From contig NZ_FRAX01000005.1 in the NCBI RefSeq assembly GCF_900142465.1, positions 1 through 64,000 on the forward strand: a stretch of DNA of 64,000 nt, read 5' to 3'. Below are positions 17,222-30,945 of this stretch, piece after piece. A program made the position numbers and the translations under genes. The stretch's first letter is position 1. Every line of letters begins with the position of its first letter. Under the pieces are notes generated by a model. The model did not search any database. It had not been told where the DNA came from and worked only from the letters and a program-made list of their open reading frames with translations. The stretch is from Fibrobacter sp. UWH6. Its GTDB lineage: Bacteria; Fibrobacterota; Fibrobacteria; Fibrobacterales; Fibrobacteraceae.

Positions 17222-17527
17222 TCAGGAATTTTCGTCCTTGACGTTTTCGTTGTTCTTTTCGGCGGACTTTCTGGAGAATTCCTCTTCCGAGGCCTTGCGG
17301 GTCGCTTCCTGCAGTTCCTTCAGTTCCTGCCAGGTTGACTTTTCTTCTCCAGATTTTTCCTTAGTATTGAACAGGACACACAGCACGGCAAAAACGGCCA
17401 TATAAAAGCCCATGGCCGCCACCACACCAAGAAGTTCATGTCCGGAAAGTTCAGCCACCTTCAGGTAGACAACCACAGAAAAGCCGGTTGATATCAGGAA
17501 CAGAATTGCAGGAAGTTTTTGTTTCAT
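17222..17527 (-). CDS. Small two-helix membrane protein of unknown function
   Basis: 101 residues: two predicted membrane helices (about residues 5-27 and 33-53) and a charged cytoplasmic-type tail rich in Glu, Lys and Asn (roughly residues 58-101). No family recognised. It starts immediately after the stop of the PL1 lyase gene with no gap, so it belongs to the same transcript and closes the pectin operon. A role linked to the lyase is suggested only by position. Confidence 0.65.
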   Translation of the reverse strand: MKQKLPAILFLISTGFSVVVYLKVAELSGHELLGVVAAMGFYMAVFAVLCVLFNTKEKSGEEKSTWQELKELQEATRKASEEEFSRKSAEKNNENVKDENS

Positions 17528-19717
17528 TTAACGAGGTCCAGTTTTATCCTTGAGGGTCCAGGCAAGGTCTGCATCGGCAGGCTCTGCCAAATAACCATAG
17601 TCCGGTTTGTATTCCAGGGATGAAACTGAGACTTTCAGAGGATCACCGCCAACCGTATACCAGTTACCGACCATCTTGGGGAAGCCAACTGAAGTATCGA
17701 TCGGAGCGCCTTCGTCATCAAAGAAACTGTAAACGAGCACAGGATCATCCATGTTGAACACGTTGCCTTCAATATAGCAACTGGCGGAGTCCGTGCATTC
17801 TACGGCATAGCGATCCAGGTTCTTAAAGAAGTTATTGAATGCATGCAGGCGACCGCGTCTTGCAAAAGCGCCAGACCAGCTCATATTATCAAAGAAATTG
17901 TGATGCAACGTCAAAGTCTGAGTTGATTCATCGATCAAATCCGGAGTCAGGCCAAAAAGGACACCCGTTTCTGCATTTTCAAAACGAGACCATGAAATAG
18001 TTACGTCATGGGAACCGCGTTTCACATCAACTTCGACAATGGGATATTCTTCAAAGGAGCAATGGTCAATCCACACATGATGGGTGTTATTGTGAAGAGA
18101 AATGGCCCTGCGATTTGCTGTATCGGAAACAACTGTCGACGGAGCAGAGAACGTCAGATTTTCAAAAATCAGGTTAGACGATTCCTCCGTCATAATTCCC
18201 ATACCAGAAATGCGGATATCTCGACCGCGACCATCAAAAGTCTTGTTGGACTTAATTCGAAGAGATGCCGTCAAATTATAAGTTCCGCTTTTCTCGAAAA
18301 GAATCCAGGTCGGTCCATCACGATAGGCGCAATCCCGCAAGGAACCGGGAGCGATTACGGCGGTAGTGGCCGCCTTTCCGGTAGAGTCCACATTGGTGGT
18401 ATCTTCTACAATGATGTAATCCTCTGTTGTCGTAACAAGGCAAATTTCACCCTGGATAGAATCTGCAGCCAGGCTGTCGATGTAGCCTTCACCGCCACGA
18501 ACACCCGATGCATAGCCGACAACTTCCCTCAATAAGGCCGCGTGATCCTTCCAGTCTGCAGGATAAGTTGAGCGATCCTCGCCTACGCCCATTGAAATCT
18601 TTTTCAGGGATTCTTCAGAAACGCCGCCCAGGAACACATCATCCAGGAAGACAGTATCCCCAGCATTCACACTAAAGTCAATTCGGTTTACAGCAACTTT
18701 CTTCGACCCCACAGGAAGAGCGAATCCTTGCCAAACCTTTGACAGATCCACGTCAAACTCTATGCTCTTGGCAGAGCTATCATAAGCCGAAAGAGCCACA
18801 TGCAAGGTTCCATGGCCACGGGCACTGAACATCAGGGAATCAAAGCCAGGCAATTCGTAATCAGTTCGATATCCGCCCAGCAAGAAACCCAAGTGCGTCG
18901 AAGAACGAGAGGATTTACCTTCTCCAAAAATTCGGGCGCAACCACCCGACGCACAGCCATCATTACCAGAGAATGTCTGCGTCAGGGATTCATCCCAGAG
19001 GGGCATCAAGTTCTGGCCATCGGCATCCATGGTAAACCACCAGCCATCACCAAGAATAGCTCCCGTGGCAGAAATTCCGCTAAAGCTTTCGAAATCTTCC
19101 ACAGCAAAACCACGGGGAGCGCCCAGGTTTATTTCGGGCACGGTTTCACCGGCAGATGCGCTCAACTTGATTGTACCGCGGTTGCTTCGGCTCTCGATAA
19201 GAACTTCAAAATTTCCGGCAGGAAGGGAATCAATTACAAAATGTCCAGCGCTATCGGGAACTACAAAACGTTCCAAGCCAGGAATTCTAATGACAGAAGG
19301 ACCTTGCCCAGGTGCAACAAAGCCCTCGATGGTAGTGAGTGCGCCAAGTGCAATGGAATCAACAGCAGACACTTCCTGCAGCTCTACGGACTTGGTAAAT
19401 ACGGCACCTAATGCAGAGGAATCACTTTCTCCACGGATTTCTACAGAGTATTCACCAGGATCCACAGTTAGCTTTACATAACCGCGGTCATCCGTATCAG
19501 ACCATTCTTCCTGAGACAAGCCGTCAGACAAATATCCTACCGGCAACACGCGAATACGGGACTTGGCAGCAGGCGCACCATCCGCCAATTGGATCTGCAA
19601 GGCAATTGTAGATTCAGCTTCGGTACCACCGGCAACTTCATCCTTGTCATTGGAACAGGATGTTGTCAATGCAGCGAGAGCTCCACCCAAAATCAACCAG
19701 AAGGGCTTTTTAATCAT
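17528..19717 (-). CDS. Pectate lyase (PL1) lipoprotein with N-terminal beta domains
   Basis: 729 residues. Lipoprotein signal with lipobox LTTSC, then two carboxypeptidase-regulatory/CnaB-like beta sandwiches (about residues 35-205), a jelly-roll-like module (about 210-370), and a PL1 right-handed beta helix to the end. PL1 features seen: TFDGRGRDIRISG, HHVWIDHCSFEE (the vWiDH signature) and RRGRLHAFNNFF. It cleaves polygalacturonate by beta-elimination, probably tethered to the cell envelope. The start ATG overlaps the last codons of the upstream TIGR02147 gene by 8 nt, with its GGAGG inside that gene; an upstream in-frame start is therefore unlikely. Confidence 0.9.
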   Translation of the reverse strand: MIKKPFWLILGGALAALTTSCSNDKDEVAGGTEAESTIALQIQLADGAPAAKSRIRVLPVGYLSDGLSQEEWSDTDDRGYVKLTVDPGEYSVEIRGESDSSALGAVFTKSVELQEVSAVDSIALGALTTIEGFVAPGQGPSVIRIPGLERFVVPDSAGHFVIDSLPAGNFEVLIESRSNRGTIKLSASAGETVPEINLGAPRGFAVEDFESFSGISATGAILGDGWWFTMDADGQNLMPLWDESLTQTFSGNDGCASGGCARIFGEGKSSRSSTHLGFLLGGYRTDYELPGFDSLMFSARGHGTLHVALSAYDSSAKSIEFDVDLSKVWQGFALPVGSKKVAVNRIDFSVNAGDTVFLDDVFLGGVSEESLKKISMGVGEDRSTYPADWKDHAALLREVVGYASGVRGGEGYIDSLAADSIQGEICLVTTTEDYIIVEDTTNVDSTGKAATTAVIAPGSLRDCAYRDGPTWILFEKSGTYNLTASLRIKSNKTFDGRGRDIRISGMGIMTEESSNLIFENLTFSAPSTVVSDTANRRAISLHNNTHHVWIDHCSFEEYPIVEVDVKRGSHDVTISWSRFENAETGVLFGLTPDLIDESTQTLTLHHNFFDNMSWSGAFARRGRLHAFNNFFKNLDRYAVECTDSASCYIEGNVFNMDDPVLVYSFFDDEGAPIDTSVGFPKMVGNWYTVGGDPLKVSVSSLEYKPDYGYLAEPADADLAWTLKDKTGPR

Positions 19718-20633
19718 TGGAAGCCTCCATCTGTTCGCCTGCAACTTCGTCGTTAACTTCGTTGCGGATTTCTTCACCGATAATACGACGCTTACGTCCA
19801 CGCCTTACGGGAGGTGGATAAGGATCGCTTAAAGGGAACAACTGCATCCCCAACTGGAAAACTCGATTGGGTTTCTGGCATTGATTCACCTTGGCCAGAA
19901 CTTCGCGACGAAAACGGCGAACCATTTCAACCAATTCCTTATAGGTATCTTCATCGCAACCAAATGCCAAAGTAGAGAGGTTTCGTTCCTCTCGTTCAAA
20001 GCGGTCAATAGCCGATGTAGCCACATCCAGATTCTGCTGGATGTAAGAATTAACCGCCGTGCTATAGGATTCGCTTCCGCTAGAAATCAAGCCCTGGGTC
20101 TGTTCATAAAAACCAGTTTCCGGATTCTTGCGGATCATGGAAAGACGTTCCAGCAAGGCCACAGAGGATTTCACCTGACTAGCGGAAATCGGCGGACGGA
20201 CCATGAGGCCCAAGGCCGCATCATCCCCCACATAAGGGTAGAAGGTAATCAATTCGCGAATAACCGCATGATACCAGTGATCAAAATATTCAAACTGGTC
20301 GCGGGCCACATTTTCAACTTTGCATTCCTTGGTGGCCACCAACTTTTCGAGGTACTGGCGACTTTCGGAATGGTTTTTGGCCTGATTGAAAGAGACCATG
20401 TCCGCGAAATACTGTTTTTCGCGACCGTCATTGCAGAACAGGTCTGCAAAAACTTGAACCAGACGCGGAGTCAAGTTGCGTTTGCCCTGAAGAATCTTAT
20501 TGAACATGGAGCCATCGATTCCGGCCTTTTCTGCGATAAAACGGTGGCTGAAACGCCATTCAGCCGCATGCCGTTCTTCGTAGGCATCCTTCAGGAAATC
20601 GCGATAGTTCAAGTATTCAAAAAGATTCACCAT
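19710..20633 (-). CDS. TIGR02147-family protein, candidate transcription regulator of the pectin locus
   Basis: 307 residues. The N-terminus (MVNLFEYLNYRDFLKDAYEE, then FSHRFIAEKAGIDGSMFNKILQGKRNLTP) is the diagnostic start of the TIGR02147 family, abundant in Fibrobacter; the second stretch looks like a helix-turn-helix. The C-terminal region ends in a basic patch (RRGRKRR). DNA binding is inferred. There is no Shine-Dalgarno; TATATT ends 7 nt before the ATG, so the mRNA may be leaderless. Two direct GTCTACAGTTTA repeats lie just upstream and the nearer one covers the -35 position, suggesting autoregulation. Its 3' end overlaps the PL1 lyase start by 8 nt. Confidence 0.82.
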   Translation of the reverse strand: MVNLFEYLNYRDFLKDAYEERHAAEWRFSHRFIAEKAGIDGSMFNKILQGKRNLTPRLVQVFADLFCNDGREKQYFADMVSFNQAKNHSESRQYLEKLVATKECKVENVARDQFEYFDHWYHAVIRELITFYPYVGDDAALGLMVRPPISASQVKSSVALLERLSMIRKNPETGFYEQTQGLISSGSESYSTAVNSYIQQNLDVATSAIDRFEREERNLSTLAFGCDEDTYKELVEMVRRFRREVLAKVNQCQKPNRVFQLGMQLFPLSDPYPPPVRRGRKRRIIGEEIRNEVNDEVAGEQMEASND

Positions 20634-20640
20634 AATTTAC

Positions 20641-20699
20641 AATATACAAAAATGACGACCGAAGTCTACAGTTTAAACATTAAAGATGTCTACAGTTTA
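20641..20699 (-). promoter_or_regulatory. Promoter and paired operator-like repeats upstream of the TIGR02147 gene
   Basis: On the minus strand the -10 is TATATT (20646-20641). Two identical 12-mers GTCTACAGTTTA (plus-strand 20664-20675 and 20688-20699) are spaced 24 bp apart, about two helical turns, and the proximal one occupies the -35 position. A near-identical inverted pair is found at the PL11 promoter (27110-27146). Confidence 0.65.
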
Positions 20700-20703
20700 G
20701 AAT

Positions 20704-20730
20704 AACCGTAGCGCAACAAGCACTACGGTT
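20704..20730 (-). terminator. Hairpin between the second esterase gene and the TIGR02147 promoter
   Basis: AACCGTAG/CTACGGTT inverted repeat with an 11-nt loop, 22 nt after the esterase stop. No T-run follows on the minus strand, so it is a weak terminator or an RNA-processing/stabilising stem at the end of the PL11-CE12-CE12 transcript. Confidence 0.4.
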
Positions 20731-20751
20731 GTTCCAAATCACAACTAAGAA

Positions 20752-22551
20752 TTACTTAGCTTTCTTGTTAAGGTATACGCCGTGAGAAGCCTTGGATCTG
20801 ACAGTACGACCAAGCAGATTCACCTGTTCGGTGCGGCCATTTATCTGAACATTCTGGCGGACAGTTCGACGAATGGATACATTGCAATCTTCATCGCCTT
20901 CGGCACAGACAGAACTGCTGGACTGATCGGAACTACTGGAGCTTTCAGGAGCAGGTTCTGCACCAATACGGTAAACGTCCTTGATGTCAAAGCCAACCAT
21001 ATCAATATTGGGGCCGCCGTCAGAAGTTAAAGACGTAAACTTCAGATCGAAATCGCAAGCATCCAGCCACACGTCGTCTACGTAGACCGTATCCCAGGTA
21101 TCCCAGTTTGCACTAGGCGGAAATTCCACTTCGTACGTTTTAGCATCCACCTGAACACTCATCTTACTTGTAGTGGTTTTACCATTGCAGTAACGAATAA
21201 ACATTCTTGCATTGGAGGCAGACTGATAAGAAGTCATCTTGTAGGTAGCGTAACGGCCCGTAGCATTGTCAAAGTTGAAGAAGCCCTTTCCACTAAAGCC
21301 TACATGGTTTGCTTCAGTCCAACCCTGAACATCCTCCCCCACGTTGGGATAAGACAAGTCGCTTACGCTAGGCCATTCTTTTGAGCCTTCAAGAATTTCA
21401 AACTTGATTATTTCACTACTAGAAGAAACGCTCGGCCCCTCGCTAGCACTGGATCCCGGCACAGGAATATTTTCTTCGCCGTGAGCCGTCGTGACGCAGT
21501 TTGCACCACCTTCGAACATCGCGGTAAAGGTGATATCGCGGTAGGGCATTTTGACCTTGTAATAGTTGGAATCAGCAGTTACCTTATTGCAATCATCATC
21601 AGCCCAGTACTGGAATTTCTTGCCGAAACTTCCCGGAGAAACATGAAGATTCAAGGCGGCGCCACCAGGCAAATTCTGGTTATGGGTAATAAGGCCACTG
21701 CCTGAAACATTGGCCTTTACGGTCAACTTGTAGGTCGGAGCAATTGCGCCCACCAAAGTAGTCAAGGCGGCCTTTTCAGAAGCATTTACAGAAGAACTAT
21801 TCAAGTTTTCACGAAGGCCATCCATGATAAGCTGCGCATGAACTACAGAACCGGATTCCTGGAAATGGGTGGTACCGTCATTGGTAACGCCATTGGGATA
21901 ATTGGGGTATTCTCCTGGCAGGAACATCTTGAAAACGTAACGGGAAATGTAGGCGGAGCTTAGCTGCGTATACAGATTATAAGTCTTTGTGGTAAGGTCA
22001 ACAAAGGGAACACCATTCTTCTGGGCGACTTCCTTAATCTTATCCTTTACAGGATATTCCTTATTCTTGTGGGCAGCATCCGTAAGATTATTATCGAATA
22101 CGTTACGAGGGTAAGTATTCAGCATCAGGGGGCTCATGAGAACAATGTGAGCACCCTTGCTTTTAGCCCCGTCAACATATTTCTGGAACCAATAAGCACT
22201 GGAATCAATGGGAACGTAGCGATCCGCCTTGGAGTAGTCACGATCATTGGTTCCCATCTGAACAAAGATGTAATCACCTGGTTGTGTCGCAGCCAAAACT
22301 GAATTTAGACGACCATCGTTAATAAAGGATTTGGAACTACGACCACCAATGGCGTAGTTAATCACCTTTACACGGGACTGATCAAAGAAGGGAGCCAGAA
22401 CCTGGCCCCAACCGGTCTGCGGATAAGCATTTTCCTTGTAATCGCAAACCGTGGAGTCTCCAATCACGTGAATGGTAAAACTCGTCGTATCGCTAACGGC
22501 AACACTTGTAAAAAGAGCAGCAGCAGAAAAATACTTCAAAAGTTTATTCAT
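20752..22551 (-). CDS. Secreted SGNH esterase (CE12-like, rhamnogalacturonan/pectin acetylesterase) with CBM35-like module and basic tail
   Basis: 599 residues. Signal peptide, then an SGNH hydrolase with block I GDST, block II GGRSSKSF, block III GTNDRD and the catalytic Asp-His region NDGTTHFQESG. CE12 enzymes remove acetyl groups from rhamnogalacturonan or pectin. A short InlB-like repeat (about 280-345) and a CBM35-like module (about 410-530, ending TSDGGPNIDMVGFDI) follow, then a Ser linker and a basic tail (SIRRTVRQNVQINGR) resembling the Fibrobacter basic terminal domain. The start ATG has GGGGTGG about 5 nt upstream and follows the preceding esterase gene by 10 nt. Confidence 0.87.
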   Translation of the reverse strand: MNKLLKYFSAAALFTSVAVSDTTSFTIHVIGDSTVCDYKENAYPQTGWGQVLAPFFDQSRVKVINYAIGGRSSKSFINDGRLNSVLAATQPGDYIFVQMGTNDRDYSKADRYVPIDSSAYWFQKYVDGAKSKGAHIVLMSPLMLNTYPRNVFDNNLTDAAHKNKEYPVKDKIKEVAQKNGVPFVDLTTKTYNLYTQLSSAYISRYVFKMFLPGEYPNYPNGVTNDGTTHFQESGSVVHAQLIMDGLRENLNSSSVNASEKAALTTLVGAIAPTYKLTVKANVSGSGLITHNQNLPGGAALNLHVSPGSFGKKFQYWADDDCNKVTADSNYYKVKMPYRDITFTAMFEGGANCVTTAHGEENIPVPGSSASEGPSVSSSSEIIKFEILEGSKEWPSVSDLSYPNVGEDVQGWTEANHVGFSGKGFFNFDNATGRYATYKMTSYQSASNARMFIRYCNGKTTTSKMSVQVDAKTYEVEFPPSANWDTWDTVYVDDVWLDACDFDLKFTSLTSDGGPNIDMVGFDIKDVYRIGAEPAPESSSSSDQSSSSVCAEGDEDCNVSIRRTVRQNVQINGRTEQVNLLGRTVRSKASHGVYLNKKAK

Positions 22552-22561
22552 TTTGCCACCC

Positions 22562-24430
22562 CTACTTTGTCTTTGCCATAGTCTGATGAATAAGCTGGGA
22601 ACCCTTGCGGATAACCACATGGTAAAGGCCAGAAGTTTTTACCATTCCGTCAAATTCAGCAGAAGAAATTTTGTTGCCCACAACCATCTGCTTCTTGGCA
22701 ACAAGCTTACCATGCATATCGAAAACGCTAACCGAGGCTTCGCCCATCTGCGGAAGATTCAGGGAGGCATTCACAAATCCAATAGAGGAATCGTTCTTCA
22801 GGGAATCTGCAGCGGCAATGGAATCCTTTTCAGCCTGTTCCTTGGCAATGACTTCTGCAACACATGCTGTATCAGAAACTCGACAAACATCATCAATGCT
22901 GAAACCGAAGGCGTCAATATTGGGAGCACCATCAGATGTCAAGCTGATAAACTTCAAATCGGCTTCACCAAGGGGTGCATCCATAACAACATATGCGGTA
23001 TCCCACTTGTCCCAGCCACCAGTTGGAGGAGCATTCAGGTAGTAGTCATGATCCAGATAAGCGTTAAACATACGGTCAGAAGTTCCGCCATTAGCATAAC
23101 GCACGGCAAGAGTCACATAGCCTGCCCCCGGGAAACGCATTCTATAGGTGCAAAAGGAATTCTTCTCGTTGGCAAAGTTAAAGAAGCCTTCACCCGTATG
23201 GGCCCAGTTGTCTTCAGAGAAACCAACACCTGTATCCGGCTTAAAGGCATCAAAATATTTCTTGATGTCCTTATTTACAGCCACTCCATTAGTATCGCTT
23301 CCGCCAATGGGAGTGAACGGTTCAAAAGTCACATCATCAAGACTCGTAGGAGTTGTTGTGGGGAAGCTAGTCAAAGCCTTTCCGTCACCCTCATACTTTA
23401 CGGCAGAACCACCTTCATAAACGGCTGTATACTGGGTAGACTTATTGCCCATCTTGAAAGTATAGATGTACTGAGATTTAACGGTAGAAATGGCATTACC
23501 GCTAACCTTATTTCCATTACCATCATACCAGCCCAGGAATTTCTTGCCGCTCTTGGGAATGGTCTTCAACATGACAGTCATACCTTCGGGATAATAGGCA
23601 CCAATAGATGTTGCTTCAGCAGCACCTTCCGGAGAAACCTTCACGTCCACCTGGTACATAGGAGTCATATAATTGCCCAACTTCTTTACCACAGGGTCGG
23701 AATGAGCACGCATCTGTTCGGTAATAATACGGCCAAAGGCATTGGCTCCATTCATCTGCAGATGAACGGCATCAGTCTGGTCAGACTTCAAATTGCTGTA
23801 TTCAGCAGAAGTGGCGTAGTTGAAGATAAACTGCTGGGCGTAATATTCACCCACAGAAATCATGTAGTTTGCCACCAGTTCACTCATGTCGATAAATGGA
23901 ATATCAAGGCTATCGGCAATGGCCTTGGCACGAGCAGGATAACCGCGGTAGCTGTTATGGATCTGCGTCGGAGAATCGTAATAGAGTCGACGAATAGGGC
24001 TCATGATAATGGGATAAGCCCCCTTTGCACGAGCTTCCTTTGCCATGGTGGCCATAGCTACGGTAAACTTAGCTTCGTCACTCTTGCTCACATCATTGAT
24101 ACCGAACTGAATTACCGCATAGTCGCCAGCCTTCAGCTTGCTCACAATGCAGTTGCCCTGAGTACAATCGCTCTTCCAGAAAAGTTCGTAATAGCCATCG
24201 GCCGCCATACCGCCCTGACCGCGATTAACCACGGTAGCCAAGCCAGAATCAAACCAATAATGGAAATCCTGCCCCTGGCCCTGCTTGGGGCAGTAACCAC
24301 TAGCCCAGTCCTGCATGGTGGAGTCTCCACACATATAGATAACAACCTGAGCCAAAGCGGCAGGAGCCGCTAACATAGAAGCCACGACGGCGCCCTGCCA
24401 AAACTTACCAGAAAAGAACTTCATACCCAT
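22562..24430 (-). CDS. Secreted SGNH esterase (CE12-like) with CBM35-like module and C-terminal sorting-like domain
   Basis: 622 residues, paralogous to its downstream neighbour. Signal peptide, SGNH domain with GDSTMQDW, GQGGMAADG, FGINDVS and catalytic SDQTDAVHLQ; InlB-like repeat (about 260-335); CBM35-like module (about 395-500, TSDGAPNIDAFGFSI); then a T9SS-type C-terminal module (ASVSVFDMHGKLVAKK, GLYHVVIRKGSQ). It differs from the paralogue in this tail, which may mean a different export or anchoring route. The gene follows the PL11 stop by 7 nt. Two ATGs lie two codons apart (24430, 24424); neither has a strong SD, consistent with translation coupled to PL11. Confidence 0.87.
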   Translation of the reverse strand: MGMKFFSGKFWQGAVVASMLAAPAALAQVVIYMCGDSTMQDWASGYCPKQGQGQDFHYWFDSGLATVVNRGQGGMAADGYYELFWKSDCTQGNCIVSKLKAGDYAVIQFGINDVSKSDEAKFTVAMATMAKEARAKGAYPIIMSPIRRLYYDSPTQIHNSYRGYPARAKAIADSLDIPFIDMSELVANYMISVGEYYAQQFIFNYATSAEYSNLKSDQTDAVHLQMNGANAFGRIITEQMRAHSDPVVKKLGNYMTPMYQVDVKVSPEGAAEATSIGAYYPEGMTVMLKTIPKSGKKFLGWYDGNGNKVSGNAISTVKSQYIYTFKMGNKSTQYTAVYEGGSAVKYEGDGKALTSFPTTTPTSLDDVTFEPFTPIGGSDTNGVAVNKDIKKYFDAFKPDTGVGFSEDNWAHTGEGFFNFANEKNSFCTYRMRFPGAGYVTLAVRYANGGTSDRMFNAYLDHDYYLNAPPTGGWDKWDTAYVVMDAPLGEADLKFISLTSDGAPNIDAFGFSIDDVCRVSDTACVAEVIAKEQAEKDSIAAADSLKNDSSIGFVNASLNLPQMGEASVSVFDMHGKLVAKKQMVVGNKISSAEFDGMVKTSGLYHVVIRKGSQLIHQTMAKTK

Positions 24431-24437
24431 AACACTA

Positions 24438-27089
24438 CTACTTCAAGGAGAAACTGGACTTAGCAATAGTCTTGCCGTTCAACATAACCTTCACAACGTA
24501 ATTGCCCTTAGGCAGCAAATCTCGATCGATATTCAGCACAGACTGACCTGCAGGAACCTTAGCATCCATGCTACCCACAATCTGGCCGCGCATATCGTAA
24601 ATGCGAACTTCTGCATAACCAGAAAGATTGGTGCGCAAGATACCTGTATTGGGATTATAGGCATTCACGCCAGCAGCAAAGGGAACGGGAGCAAGAACAG
24701 TACCCGGATTTTCAGGATCCGTCGGCTCAGGAACTTTCTGGTTATTATAGAGTTCAATGCCATCCATACCAAAGGTAAAGGTATCCACATTGGGACCACC
24801 ATCAGAAGTGGTAGAAGACAATTTCAGAGTATTCTTACCGGCCTTGAGCGCTACATTTACAGTTACTTCCGTGTAGGTTGTCCAACCACCGGGAACAAAT
24901 TCCACGGTACCTGCAGACTTGCCATTTACAATAAGAGTCATGTTACGATTGGAATTTCCACCATTGGCAAATCGAATGGTCAAGGTAGTCTTTACATCCT
25001 GGGGAGAGTAGATTTCCCACACGCCATAACTGCCAATGCTGTTATCAAAATTGTAGAAGCCATCCTGTTCAAAGCCTGCATTATCCGTCTGACATTCAAA
25101 GCCAACACCTTCTACAGGTTTGCAGATTTCCAGCGCAGACGTTCCATCCTTAATAACCGGATATTCATCGGTTTCATCAGGAACAGAAACAATGGGTTCG
25201 CCCACAATCTGAATTTCAGGAGCAGTTAATTTCTTGACAGCATCCGGCAGGTAATAACCCAGGTGAGGCGGCTGATTGTAGGCAGTATTCTGCCAAGCAA
25301 TAGCTGTACGATAAACCGGATCATGCATCAAGGTGTACACACGATAAGGTGAGGTCACCGGAGTGCCGATGATGTAGAGAACGGACGGGTCTTCGGAATT
25401 ACGAACCACCAGTTCTTCGCGCCAGTCACCAAAGAGGTCTGCCACCAGACTGGGAGTGTTCTTGGTGCCGTTACAACCTGTTGCGCCAAGAGCCTTTGAG
25501 CCATCGAAATAAGTTTCAGATTCTCTCTTAGTGATGTTAAACTTCGTTACATAAGCGCCATCAAGAAGTTCGTCCTGCAAGTCACCATCAAAGTAAATAC
25601 GGAAGTTAGTGGAAACCGCAGGAGAGCCCATGGACTTGCCCTTGATATCATGCATGCCGCCACTATAGCTGGACCACACTTCGAAGCCACGATGAGTAGA
25701 ATCAATGTCAGCAGCCATGCCGCGACCATTATCCTTACCCGGCTGCGGAGTACCCCAAATAATGGTTCCATCGGGTGCGCGAACTTCATCGGTATACTTG
25801 GCATCAGTATGTTCATGCACATCAAAGAATTCCAGGCCAGGAAGATCCGGATCCAAGTCAGACAAATGACCTGCATCCCCATGGCCCAACTGAGTAGAAT
25901 AACGAAGAGTACCGTCGTGGTTCAAAGCGGCACCACCGAAAACAATTTCATCGTAGCCATCGCCATCGATATCGCCGGTAACAATATTGTGGTTGCCCTG
26001 GGCATAAAAACCCTTGCCCGGATCTTCGGACTTATGATACCAACGCTGCTTCAGTTCCTTACCATTAAAATCCCAAGCGACGATGTAGGAGGAACTATAG
26101 TATCCACGAATAAAGATCGCACTGGGATGAACTCCATCTAGGTAAGCAGTGGCGGCAATATAGCGTTCGCAACGGTTTCCATAGTTATCGCCCCAGTAGC
26201 CCTTCTTATCCACGCCCTTTACGTGCTGGTTGATATTACGGCTGGGAACAAAATCAATGGTAGTGATGGCGGCTCCATCTACACCACGGAAGACTGTCAG
26301 GTATTCGGGGCCATCAAGAACAGTTCCACCGGAATTACGGTAATCCTTGGACTTGTCGCCAATGGCCTTGCCCGTACCGTCAATGGTTCCGTCGGCAGTC
26401 TTCACGATCATTTCGGCCTTGCCGTCACCATCGTAGTCATAGACCTGGAACTGGGTATAATGGGCGCCAGCACGGATATTCTTACCCATGTCGATACGCC
26501 ACAAACGGGTTCCATCCAACTTATAGGCATCAATGAATACGGTGCCTGTGTAACCACCCTGGGAGTTATCGTGGGCATTGGACGGATCCCACTTCAAAAT
26601 CAATTCAAGTTCGCCGTCACCATCCAGGTCAGCAGCGCTCATGTCGTTAGGAGTATATGTGCAGATTTCACCATCAGGCATGGTCTGCTTTGCGGGAACT
26701 TCAAGTTTAATGGTCTTGTAGGGGAAAGACTTTCCGCTATTAGAAACGGTCTGGCCCAAAACTACAGATAATCCAGATTTGGCACTTTCCTTACCATTCA
26801 AGACAGCAGTCACCTGATATCCGGAAGAAGTCTTACCTTCTGCATCCAGATAGTTTGTGCCATCGGTTCCCTTGATGGACGCAATCTTTGTACCATCCCT
26901 ATAAAGATTAAACTCCGTTTGCGGATCATCAGAGCCTAGTAAGCGCCAGCTTACCAGCATACCCTTACCCACATTCGCAGCAACAAGACCGCGAGTCAAA
27001 TTTTCCATCTGCTTGGGAGCAGCGAAAACCAAACCATTCATGCTCAAAAGAGCAGACCCAATAAGTAATGCCTTTGAAATATTACGCAT
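24438..27089 (-). CDS. Secreted rhamnogalacturonan lyase (PL11) with CBM35-like module
   Basis: 883 residues. Signal peptide, PL11 catalytic propeller (about 25-640) with calcium-loop repeats of the DxDGDG type (AADLDGDGELELILKWD, YDYDGDGKAEMIVK, GDIDGDGYDEIVFGG), a CBM35-like module (about 660-790) and a C-terminal sorting-like module (AEVRIYDMRGQIVGS, GNYVVKVMLNGK). PL11 enzymes cleave the rhamnogalacturonan-I backbone by beta-elimination. It heads the operon with the two CE12 esterases (gaps of 7 and 10 nt). I choose the ATG at 27089, with AGGTG about 10 nt upstream; an in-frame GTG 9 nt earlier is the alternative. Confidence 0.92.
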   Translation of the reverse strand: MRNISKALLIGSALLSMNGLVFAAPKQMENLTRGLVAANVGKGMLVSWRLLGSDDPQTEFNLYRDGTKIASIKGTDGTNYLDAEGKTSSGYQVTAVLNGKESAKSGLSVVLGQTVSNSGKSFPYKTIKLEVPAKQTMPDGEICTYTPNDMSAADLDGDGELELILKWDPSNAHDNSQGGYTGTVFIDAYKLDGTRLWRIDMGKNIRAGAHYTQFQVYDYDGDGKAEMIVKTADGTIDGTGKAIGDKSKDYRNSGGTVLDGPEYLTVFRGVDGAAITTIDFVPSRNINQHVKGVDKKGYWGDNYGNRCERYIAATAYLDGVHPSAIFIRGYYSSSYIVAWDFNGKELKQRWYHKSEDPGKGFYAQGNHNIVTGDIDGDGYDEIVFGGAALNHDGTLRYSTQLGHGDAGHLSDLDPDLPGLEFFDVHEHTDAKYTDEVRAPDGTIIWGTPQPGKDNGRGMAADIDSTHRGFEVWSSYSGGMHDIKGKSMGSPAVSTNFRIYFDGDLQDELLDGAYVTKFNITKRESETYFDGSKALGATGCNGTKNTPSLVADLFGDWREELVVRNSEDPSVLYIIGTPVTSPYRVYTLMHDPVYRTAIAWQNTAYNQPPHLGYYLPDAVKKLTAPEIQIVGEPIVSVPDETDEYPVIKDGTSALEICKPVEGVGFECQTDNAGFEQDGFYNFDNSIGSYGVWEIYSPQDVKTTLTIRFANGGNSNRNMTLIVNGKSAGTVEFVPGGWTTYTEVTVNVALKAGKNTLKLSSTTSDGGPNVDTFTFGMDGIELYNNQKVPEPTDPENPGTVLAPVPFAAGVNAYNPNTGILRTNLSGYAEVRIYDMRGQIVGSMDAKVPAGQSVLNIDRDLLPKGNYVVKVMLNGKTIAKSSFSLK

Positions 27090-27109
27090 ACACACCACAC
27101 CTATCTTAA

Positions 27110-27146
27110 AACTGTAGACAAATATATACTAAAATTGTCCACAGTT
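27110..27146 (-). promoter_or_regulatory. PL11 promoter with imperfect inverted operator
   Basis: Arms AACTGTAGACAA (27110-27121) and TTGTCCACAGTT (27135-27146) are inverted repeats matching at 11 of 12 positions around a 13-nt AT-rich spacer. On the minus strand the spacer contains the -10 candidate TATATT (27126-27121), so a bound protein would cover the promoter core. Each arm matches the GTCTACAGTT core of the direct repeats at the TIGR02147 promoter. Confidence 0.65.
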
Positions 27147-27291: not shown

Positions 27292-30200
27292 ATGAAAAGA
27301 TTTTTCTCATATTTTTTCGCAATTATTCTGGCTTTCGCCTACACAGCAAACGCCCAACCTGGGCCTAAAAATGTCCACAATCGTGGAGACAAGAAGCCAA
27401 AGACTGTCCGTGTAGGATACTATCAGAACGAAAGTTTTCAGGAAGGCGGACAGGGATCTCCGCTGTATGGCTTCGGTTACGAATATTACCAACGCATCGC
27501 CCAGTACTCTGGCTGGCGTTACGAGTATGTCTACGGACCCTATGAAGAACTCTATCAGAAATTCATTGACGGCGAAATAGACCTGTTTGCAGGTCTCGCC
27601 CGCACCCCGGAACGAGAGGCCAAAATGTTCTTCCCTCAAGCTCCCATGGGCCGCGACATCTACCACTTGATCAAGAAATCCAACAACACGTCTATTCACG
27701 AGGATCCTACCTCCCTCCAGGACAAGAAAATCGGGACACTCCGCGGAGCTATGGAACTGGCACTCATTACGCTTCTGCAATCCAGACATGTCAAAGCCAA
27801 CATTATCGTATTCGATGACATTAGTTCCCGAGACCAGGCCCTGAGCACAAATTCCATTGACGCCGCCATCGTTGAAAACGCAGGATCCAGTGTTCAGGAA
27901 GGTACAGAAACTTTCTTGAGAATGGGAAATACAAATTTTTATCTGTGCGTTACCAAGAAACGCCCCGACCTATTTGGTGAGTTAAACCGGGCCATCGGAC
28001 AGTTAATGACCGACGACCCGATTATCATGGCCAAACTGTACGACAAGTACATGCGCGCCGGTGCCGCCTCAAAAACATTGACATTGCCAGAAAAGATTTG
28101 GCTTGCAAACCACGACACCATCAGGATCGGCTATCTCCGCAACATGCTCCCCTACAGCGACGACAGGGATAACGACAAAAACGCGGAACAAAACCACTCA
28201 GACCGCATCGTAGCAAGCAGCGACAAGCCCTCAGGCATCGTGAGCGAAATATTCCCTGAAATGGCAGGTCACATCACTTCAAAAAAATTATTCCTCAAGT
28301 ATAAGGGATACGATTCCTACGATGAAATGATTTCCGCCCTTGTCAAGGGCGAACAGGACGTAGCCTTCCCTGCAGGAGGCAGTCTATATAGGGCAGAACA
28401 GGCGGGAATCCGAGAATCAGCCCCAGTCATACGATCCGAATTGAACCTAGTCTACAAGAACGTCTTCAACAAGAATACGGTTTCCAGTTTTGCAGTCAAC
28501 AAGAACAACAGGGTCATGGATTACAACATCCAGGACAACTTCCCCAATGCAAAAATCGTTTATTACAATTCAATCCAGGAGTGCCTTGACGCCGTACAGA
28601 AAGGCCAGGTCAATGCAACAATTCTAGGAAATCTCCGATCCATCCACCTACTAAAGAACCGCCAATATTCTAACCTGTCGGTTAAGTTGCTAAACATCCC
28701 CGACGACAAGTATTTCGGCGTTGCCAACGGAAACGAACCTTTCCTGAAGATATTGAATCGAGGAATTGCATTGACAGGCGCAGAATATACGTTAAACCTG
28801 GCCTATCAGTACGCAGAAAAACTGTATCAGCCGAGTCTAGTAGAAACAATTTCCGACCATGCAGCGCTCTTCTTCTCGCTGCTTGCCGCATTTTTCGTAT
28901 TGATATCCGCATTCATCATCAGCCGCTACAGACGAATCAAGAGGGAAACCGCCAGGGAAAAGGAACAAAACGAACGACTCAGTATGCAGTTGGACGTGAT
29001 TAACTCCATTAGCGACTTGTACCATAGTGTATTCCTGGTCAACATTCCCCAAAATACCTTCACCATTCTACATACATTCGAATCCATTGAAAAAGCCGTC
29101 GGACATTTAAGAAATGACGCCCAGCAGGCATTGAACCTGATGGCTGAGAACATGATTCAGGACAAGTTCAAGCCTATTATACGAGAATTCAACAATATCG
29201 CCAGCTGGAAAAACAAACTGGCAAATTCAGATTCCATTTATGAAGAGTACGTCGGTAAAATTCAAGGTTGGTGCGGAGTCAGCATCATTGTAGCCCGTCG
29301 CAACGAAAAGGGCGAGCCGACGCACGTACTCTACATTTCACAGGAAATCAACCGTCAGAAAAAGACGGAACAGAACCTGCAGGAAGCTCTTGAACAGGCG
29401 GAACAGGCAAACAAGGCCAAGACGTTCTTCCTGAACAACATGAGCCACGATATCCGCACCCCCATGAATGCCATTATCGGTTTCACGACACTCGCCGCCA
29501 CTCACATGGACGACAAGGAAAAACTTTCTGACTACCTCGGAAAGATTACCACCTCCAGTGAACATCTCCTGTCCCTGATTAACGACGTTCTTGACATGCG
29601 CCGCATCGAAAGCGGGAAGGTCAAGTTGGAAGAACGCGAATGTCATCTGCCTGACCTGCTCCACGACATCAAGACTATCGTACAGGCAAACATCCTCCGC
29701 AAACAGCAGGAGCTGTTTATCGACGCCATGGACGTAGTCAACGAAGACGTCATTGTAGACAAACTCCGTCTAAACCAGGTCTTGTTAAACCTTCTGAGCA
29801 ATGCAATCAAGTTCACCCATAACGGAGGCACAATTAGCCTGAGGGTTCTTGAAAAGCCTTGCACCACTAAGGATTACGCCCGATACGAGTTCAGCGTCAA
29901 GGACAACGGTATCGGTATTAGCGAAGAATTCCAGAAGCATATTTTTGATGCTTTCTCCAGAGAAGAATCCTCCACTGTTTCCGGCATCCAGGGAACTGGC
30001 CTGGGTATGGCCATTACCAAGAACATCGTCAATATGATGAACGGAAACATCGAAATCGTTTCTGCAGAAGGTAAAGGCACAGAATTTATCGTCTCCCTGG
30101 AATTTAAACTGTGTAAGGGTCCCACAAGAAACGTTTCCGTATCTCAGCTTATGGGCTTGAGAGCCCTGATTGTCGATGACGATTCCAACACCTGCCTAAG

Positions 30201-30945
30201 TGTAAGCAAGATGTTGAGAACTATCGGCATGCGCCCGGAATGGACAATATCCGGAAGAGAAGCTGTCCTTAGAACCCAAGACGCAGTGGATCAGGGAGAA
30301 GACTTCCACACGTTCATTATTGACTGGCAGATGCCGGACATGAACGGCATTGAAACCGTACGCCGAATCCGCAAGATTATCGGAGAAGGAAAACAGATTA
30401 TTATCCTTACCGCATATGACTGGAGCGAAATTGAAGAAGAAGCACTTAAGGCTGGCGTAACCGCGTTCTGTTCTAAGCCGCTATTCATGTCGGAACTGCG
30501 CGATGTATTGACCAGACCGGCCGGAACTGCCAAGAATAAAACTGTCAACGGATACGACTTCGAGGGAGCACCCATCTTACTGGCAGAAGACAACCCGCTT
30601 AACCAGGAAATCGCTTCTACGCTGCTTACCGAAGCCGGCTTTGAAGTGACCGTAGTGAACAACGGTAAAGAAGCTGTCGATAAAATCAACGAAGTTCCGG
30701 CAAACACTTTCAAGCTGATCCTGATGGACATCCAGATGCCCATTATGGACGGTTACGAAGCTTCCAGACAAATTAGAAGTCTAGCCGATTCCGAGAAGTC
30801 TACTATTCCTATTGTCGCCATGACGGCGAATGCCTTTGACGAAGACCGCAAGAAGGCCTTTGACGCAGGAATGAACGGACATGTGGCAAAGCCCATCAAC
30901 GTGGAAAAGCTGATGGAGACTCTCAAGATCATCTTGAAAAATTAA
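27292..30945 (+). CDS. Hybrid histidine kinase with two periplasmic solute-binding domains and two receiver domains (EvgS/BvgS-like)
   Basis: 1217 residues. Signal peptide (1-21), two periplasmic solute-binding (SBP_bac_3) domains (about 38-262 and 275-515), one membrane helix (about 521-547), a PAS-like segment (about 565-690), HisKA with phospho-His in [15 protein letters not shown] (about 716), HATPase (N box [11 protein letters not shown] boxes DNGIGI and GTGLGM), then two receivers with Asp in FIIDWQMP (about 1008) and LILMDIQMP (about 1143). There is no HPt and no DNA-binding output, so the phosphate must pass to proteins encoded elsewhere. First of three tandem kinases, divergent from the pectin operon; sensing of pectin-derived ligands is only a positional inference. 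Confidence 0.93.

Follow-up and report, generated by a model that had tools for sequence, protein, structure and literature searches.

Promoter repeats suggest a TIGR02147 protein as autoregulator of rhamnogalacturonan-I breakdown in Fibrobacter

The window analysed here, a stretch of 64,000 nucleotides, is part of contig C5 of a 3.92-Mb Fibrobacter genome (G000) and encodes a TIGR02147 protein which we propose, with a probability of roughly 0.8, to be the autoregulator of a rhamnogalacturonan-I (RG-I) regulon. The proposal is drawn from sequence comparison; there are no data on binding, on the sign of the regulation or on the inducer. According to the model, the protein would be a local one-component transcription regulator of RG-I breakdown whose N-terminal helix-turn-helix (HTH) reads AAAnTGTRGACTTTTWAT. 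It would sit on two or more copies of this unit near the -35 and -10 elements of its own promoter, which serves the regulator and a PL1 lipoprotein, and also on the promoter of a PL11-esterase-esterase operon and, at other genomic locations, at GH43 arabinan-type genes. If the protein is a repressor, which we favour only weakly, repression would be lifted by a signal derived from RG-I.

The genes for the PL11 lyase, the two esterases, the TIGR02147 protein and the PL1 lyase were confirmed to lie on one strand, the minus strand (Table 1). PL11 contains both an RGI_lyase and an RGL11_C domain according to Pfam and is kept at the corresponding position in most relatives. The esterases had been called CE12-like in a first-pass annotation; GDSL lipase domains were indeed present in both, but in the CE12 subfamily check the PaeY-type match was far below the cut-off. 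The assumed division into two transcripts fits the strong hairpin (-24.2 kcal/mol) between esterase B and the TIGR02147 promoter. The start of the PL1 gene overlaps the stop of the TIGR02147 gene by 11 bp. Divergent from PL11, a hybrid sensor kinase that combines an SBP_bac_3 sensor with two receivers is encoded on the plus strand (27292-30945), for which Pfam gave only SBP_bac_3, HisKA, HATPase_c and receiver domains.

Table 1 Features of the pectin locus; positions refer to the window.
Feature	Position	Strand	Basis and remarks
PL11 rhamnogalacturonan lyase, transcript 1, gene 1	24438..27098	-	RGI_lyase, RGL11_C, CBM-like; Pfam PF21348, 652 bits
GDSL/CE12-like esterase A	22562..24430	-	PF13472, CBM_6
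GDSL/CE12-like esterase B	20752..22551	-	PF13472; PaeY similarity below cut-off
Hairpin, putative transcript end, between esterase B and TIGR02147 promoter	20697..20738	-	RNA fold -24.2 kcal/mol, z -7.0
TIGR02147/DUF4423 regulator	19710..20633	-	NCBIfam TIGR02147, 349.8 bits; predicted HTH residues 30-48
PL1 pectate lyase lipoprotein, partner gene of the regulator	17528..19720	-	PF00544; lipobox TSCSNDKDEVAGG
101-aa membrane protein, no function assigned	17222..17527	-	3' of PL1, kept in some relatives
Putative operator copy 1, distal TGTAGAC, TIGR02147 promoter	20688..20694	-	sequence pattern; no binding data
Putative operator copy 2, proximal TGTAGAC, TIGR02147 promoter	20664..20670	-	overlaps -35 (TAGACT); no binding data
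-10 TATATT, TIGR02147 promoter	20641..20646	-	promoter scoring
Putative operator copy TGTGGAC, 5' of PL11 -10	27137..27143	-	sequence pattern; no binding data
Putative operator copy TGTAGAC, inverted, just 3' of PL11 -10	27113..27119	+	24 bp from other copy
-10 region TATATATT, PL11 promoter	27121..27128	-	sequence

The TIGR02147 promoter, which scores as TAGACT-16-TATATT, contains exact GTCTACAGTTTA twice, starting at 20664 and 20688, and the PL11 promoter carries AACTGTAGAC (27110-27119) and GTCCACAGTT (27137-27146) on either side of TATATATT; thus, the direct repeats 24 bp apart and the inverted pair around the PL11 -10 were both found as described in the first-pass annotation. Within the window TGTRGAC occurs 23 times, and the only four intergenic copies are all at these two promoters (intergenic DNA accounts for 6% of the window). 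AACTGTAGAC is present five times in 3.92 Mb, three times at this locus, and GTCTACAGTTTA with up to two mismatches was matched 11 times compared to 3.0 expected, a number reached in none of 100 shuffles. With one mismatch allowed, the core 10-mer was not enriched genome-wide (191 matches, control 210); the core by itself is uninformative without spacing, flanks or position.

An ortholog of the regulator with 80-90% identity is encoded in most Fibrobacter genomes (other paralogs are ~30% identical), and the gene order PL11-esterase-esterase-TIGR02147-PL1 is kept in most relatives. Despite diverged surrounding sequence, the ortholog promoters nearly always contain two direct TGTRGAC repeats 23-24 bp apart; exceptions are promoterless orthologs inside the esterase operon and some promoters with a single recognisable copy. 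PL11 promoters of relatives mostly have two or three copies. In the F. succinogenes group, PL11 lies at a different genomic location, yet two copies of TGTRGACTTTTTAT are present in its promoter, 64-66 bp apart, and in two other genera, with orthologs of 66% and 57% identity, the motif pair is retained at PL11, where one copy reads TGTTGAC in the genus with the 57% ortholog. A lack of enrichment near these genes in relatives had been named beforehand as a result that would refute the idea; when this was examined, the motif was present at both promoters. The full unit reads AAAnTGTRGACTTTTWAT and usually occurs as a pair with a spacing of 23-24 or 63-67 bp. Judged from these promoters, the conserved unit is TGTRGACTTTTWAT and not GTCTACAGTTTA, and the inverted pair at PL11 is a peculiarity of this clade; pairs are more often in tandem. 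The spacings between units fall into clusters at 23-24, 53-54, 63-67, 76-77 and 87 bp and the distances from the motif to the -10 at ~14-15, 25-26 and 36-39 bp, about one helical turn apart, with both sets of counts inflated by shared ancestry.

The extent of the regulon was mapped by pattern matching and inspection of individual genome stretches. In 80 Fibrobacter genomes, TGTRGACTTTTWAT was matched 136 times and the reversed control pattern 8 times; for TGTRGAC-W3-N13-16-TATATT the numbers were ~105 and 12. The genes behind the inspected sites mostly encode PL11, two GH43 families, GH30/GH43-like enzymes and TIGR02147 itself, and in the window's genome a third motif pair is flanked by a GH5 gene and two GH43 genes (C4:210730, L198). 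The predicted regulon is wider than proposed in the first-pass annotation, extending to GH43 and GH30-type enzymes. A divergent site at LuxR/radical SAM genes (L192) was discarded as probably due to chance. The extended motif was present in 51 of 63 genomes with the ortholog and in 2 of 17 without it (Fisher p 2e-7, uncorrected for phylogeny). The latter two are MAGs with ~70% completeness, and the 12 ortholog-bearing genomes lacking the strict extended motif include the window's genome, in which the core has other flanks. A scoring matrix trained solely on TIGR02147 promoters revealed two strong sites in every tested PL11 promoter of ortholog-bearing genomes and two at GH43 of the window's genome, equalled in 0 of 500 shuffles. 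With the same matrix, PL11 promoters from genomes lacking the ortholog gave nothing comparable (best scores 8.6 and 9.5 vs 16-22), nor did those of PL11 paralogs. The earlier suggestion that the TIGR02147 protein controls itself and the enzymes is supported in silico, since the motif is conserved at both promoters and tracks the ortholog; direct DNA binding is an inference for which neither binding nor expression data exist.

The regulator matched the TIGR02147 model over residues 1-270 with 349.8 bits (cut-off 50) and DUF4423 with 92 bits (cut-off 30). Its recognition segment, DGSMFNKILQGKRNLT, lies within the predicted HTH (residues 30-48), where AlphaFold placed helices at 30-37 and 41-48 (pLDDT 81-91 over residues 1-80). 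Foldseek related the N-terminus to HTHs of the HigA type (HigA antitoxin in complex with operator DNA, PDB 6lb3, 7csy, 6chv) with probabilities of 0.96-0.99 but E-values >0.05; a Pfam match to HTH_31 (E 0.013) was below the cut-off and 11 of 28 family members gave weak matches. A sequence search of the PDB for a solved relative gave none that was convincing. With modest confidence, an N-terminal HigA/XRE-like HTH followed by a MarR-like middle part is predicted. In the literature searched TIGR02147 was not mentioned and DUF4423 appeared only in a proteomics table. The window's genome encodes 22 full-length TIGR02147 paralogs, and well-assembled Fibrobacter genomes ~20 to 34 each. A TIGR02147 fragment interrupted by two in-frame TGA codons (C21:35302-35553, L023) is likely a pseudogene.

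Repeat scores of the paralog promoters in a single genome were better than those of shuffles in only 4 of 22 cases and, therefore, footprinting across orthologs was used. One paralog group has TTTGTATCAT-N14-ATGATACAAA across a consensus promoter, TTGACT-17-TATATT, in 23 of 24 orthologs, a second has GTGTAAAAA, mostly at about -26, at its own promoter in 26 of 30 orthologs, and a third CTATATGATTCA...TGAATCATATAG, again at its own promoter. Recognition helices and operators were compared in 27 protein clusters; the motif classes were partly picked after viewing the sequences and the p values are descriptive. An SSPxYLK segment was accompanied by TTTGTAT in 8 of 10 clusters, as against 2 of 17 of the others (p 0.0007), and a D-A/S-S segment by TGTRGAC or GGAC..GTCC in 3/3 vs 3/24 clusters (p 0.007); SSSSY..IRGR goes with GTGTAAAA and SSSGF..RGR with GTGTTC. 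On this evidence the sequence of the recognition helix seems to predict the operator word of TIGR02147 groups. The most telling case is a paralog that is ~30% identical to the pectin regulator and has the common segment DAS...KILQGKR; it carries TGTGGACAAAAATGTCCAC, that is TGTGGACA-N4-TGTCCAC, at its own promoter (L425-L430). Cross-talk between the two proteins is possible.

Palindromes of the GTTGTCTNNNGACAAC type were found at PL11 paralogs (L178, L179, L180, L171, L172) and at PL11 in genomes lacking the ortholog, and also 5' of TIGR02147 genes of the KDFISR group, namely L009 in the window's genome and a gene in G103 (L179) that adjoins a PL11 paralog. Since PL11 paralogs and KDFISR-type TIGR02147 promoters have this palindrome in common, a second TIGR02147 pectin regulon is suggested. 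The PL11 promoters of the F. succinogenes group also contain GTTGTCTAAAGACTACAA 3' of the -10, ~150 bp before PL11 (L158-L163, L168, L176), and the promoter sequences suggest dual control of PL11 by two TIGR02147 proteins in this group.

AAAnTGTRGACTTTT is an imperfect palindrome, which makes binding of one dimer per unit plausible; this would explain why direct and inverted 24-bp pairs are both in use. The dimers may bind cooperatively, as inferred from unit spacings that differ by roughly one helical turn. We lean only weakly to repression. The reasons are that the -35 is overlapped by operator copies, that copies also occupy the -35/-10 spacer or lie over the start site, and that the conserved operator of a paralog straddles the consensus promoter TTGACT-17-TATATT. 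The helical phasing relative to the -10 is compatible with either sign. As an activator, with the proximal copy replacing the -35 box (class II, a PhoB-like placement) and RG-I products activating the protein, the regulator would account for the distance of 25-26 bp that separates the proximal copy from TATATT in promoters unrelated to each other, with further modes about one helical turn off, for the imperfect -35 hexamers (TRGACT) at motif promoters and for GH43 promoters with copies well 5' of a TTGACT -35. It fits less well with the copy over the start region of the window's PL11 promoter, the spacers filled by a copy in many TIGR02147 promoters and the paralog operator astride a consensus promoter in 23/24 orthologs; activation is a tentative but serious possibility.

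That TGTRGACTTTT is merely the ordinary -35 element of Fibrobacter (TRGACT resembling TTGACT), with no dedicated regulator, is very improbable. The proximal copy could in part be a -35 box, TAGACT-16-TATATT does give a promoter score and the 25-26 bp mode corresponds to a spacer of 17-18 bp, but a plain -35 leaves unexplained the second copies 23-67 bp upstream, the confinement of the motif to RG-I genes, its disappearance from PL11 promoters of ortholog-less genomes and the occurrence of two distinct PL11 operators within a single genome. The motif might also be read by another regulator. The DAS...KILQGKR paralog of close specificity, with its TGTGGAC half-site, is one candidate, and the response path of the hybrid kinase, the gene of which is divergent from PL11, is the other. 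The kinase was rejected, having no DNA-binding domain and being missing at this position in most relatives, and the co-occurrence with the motif was demonstrated for the ortholog, albeit in a test that took in no paralogs; we regard a different regulator as improbable. The preferred reading remains that of the TIGR02147 protein acting on its own operator.

A lipoprotein gene follows directly 3' of 20 of the 22 TIGR02147 genes in the window's genome (L001-L022; lipobox by pattern match) and of 24 of 27 further ones (L396-L424), a sample mostly from Fibrobacter with few other genera and very small outside the Fibrobacteraceae. The two genes often overlap by 1-4 bp. The partner lipoproteins show the pattern CSxxKxVAGG... 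and carry CarboxypepD_reg-like, LamG or Fib_succ_major domains; the partner of the window's TIGR02147 protein is the PL1 lyase. It is conceivable, but doubtful at present, that TIGR02147 proteins are phylum-wide autoregulators (some 20-34 per Fibrobacter genome) whose recognition helix sets the operator, and that each, jointly with a translationally coupled surface lipoprotein, senses and answers one particular plant polysaccharide, without two-component or SusR-type sensors.

Fibrobacter is a leading cellulose degrader in herbivore guts. The genome paper on F. succinogenes reported few recognisable regulators near cellulase genes, the control of which has been called an unanswered question, and that pectin is hydrolysed but not used (PMC3079729). 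The TIGR02147 genes are a large pool of unrecognised regulator candidates, and with operator, regulon and helix-to-operator rule the proteins become testable individually. The findings suggest that pectin removal is controlled separately in a bacterium that hydrolyses pectin without using it. Local one-component control as such is known already; for the operators of the family, the helix-operator rule and the pairing with lipoproteins, no description was found in the literature searched.

In sum, the window protein is, like TIGR02147 (Fsuc_second)/DUF4423 proteins of the Fibrobacterota, a full-length match above the cut-off, and a member of a family for which no function or target was found in the literature searched is now assigned a putative operator and regulon. 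It may resemble XRE/HigA autorepressors in its N-terminal helices (as far as the Foldseek matches given above go) and in the putative site at its own promoter, but differs in its long C-terminal DUF4423 part, which includes a winged-helix-like stretch, in the absence of a toxin partner and in the proposed control of distant enzyme genes. KdgR is a local sugar-responsive repressor of pectin genes. A local one-component mode of control, acting on pectin lyases and on the regulator's own gene, would be common to KdgR-type repressors and the TIGR02147 protein, which belongs to an unrelated protein family and has a different putative operator. Polysaccharide loci of Bacteroidetes are regulated by hybrid two-component systems or SusR; the regulator gene likewise lies inside the polysaccharide locus but, unlike these systems, the TIGR02147 protein has no membrane sensor and is paired with a lipoprotein gene.
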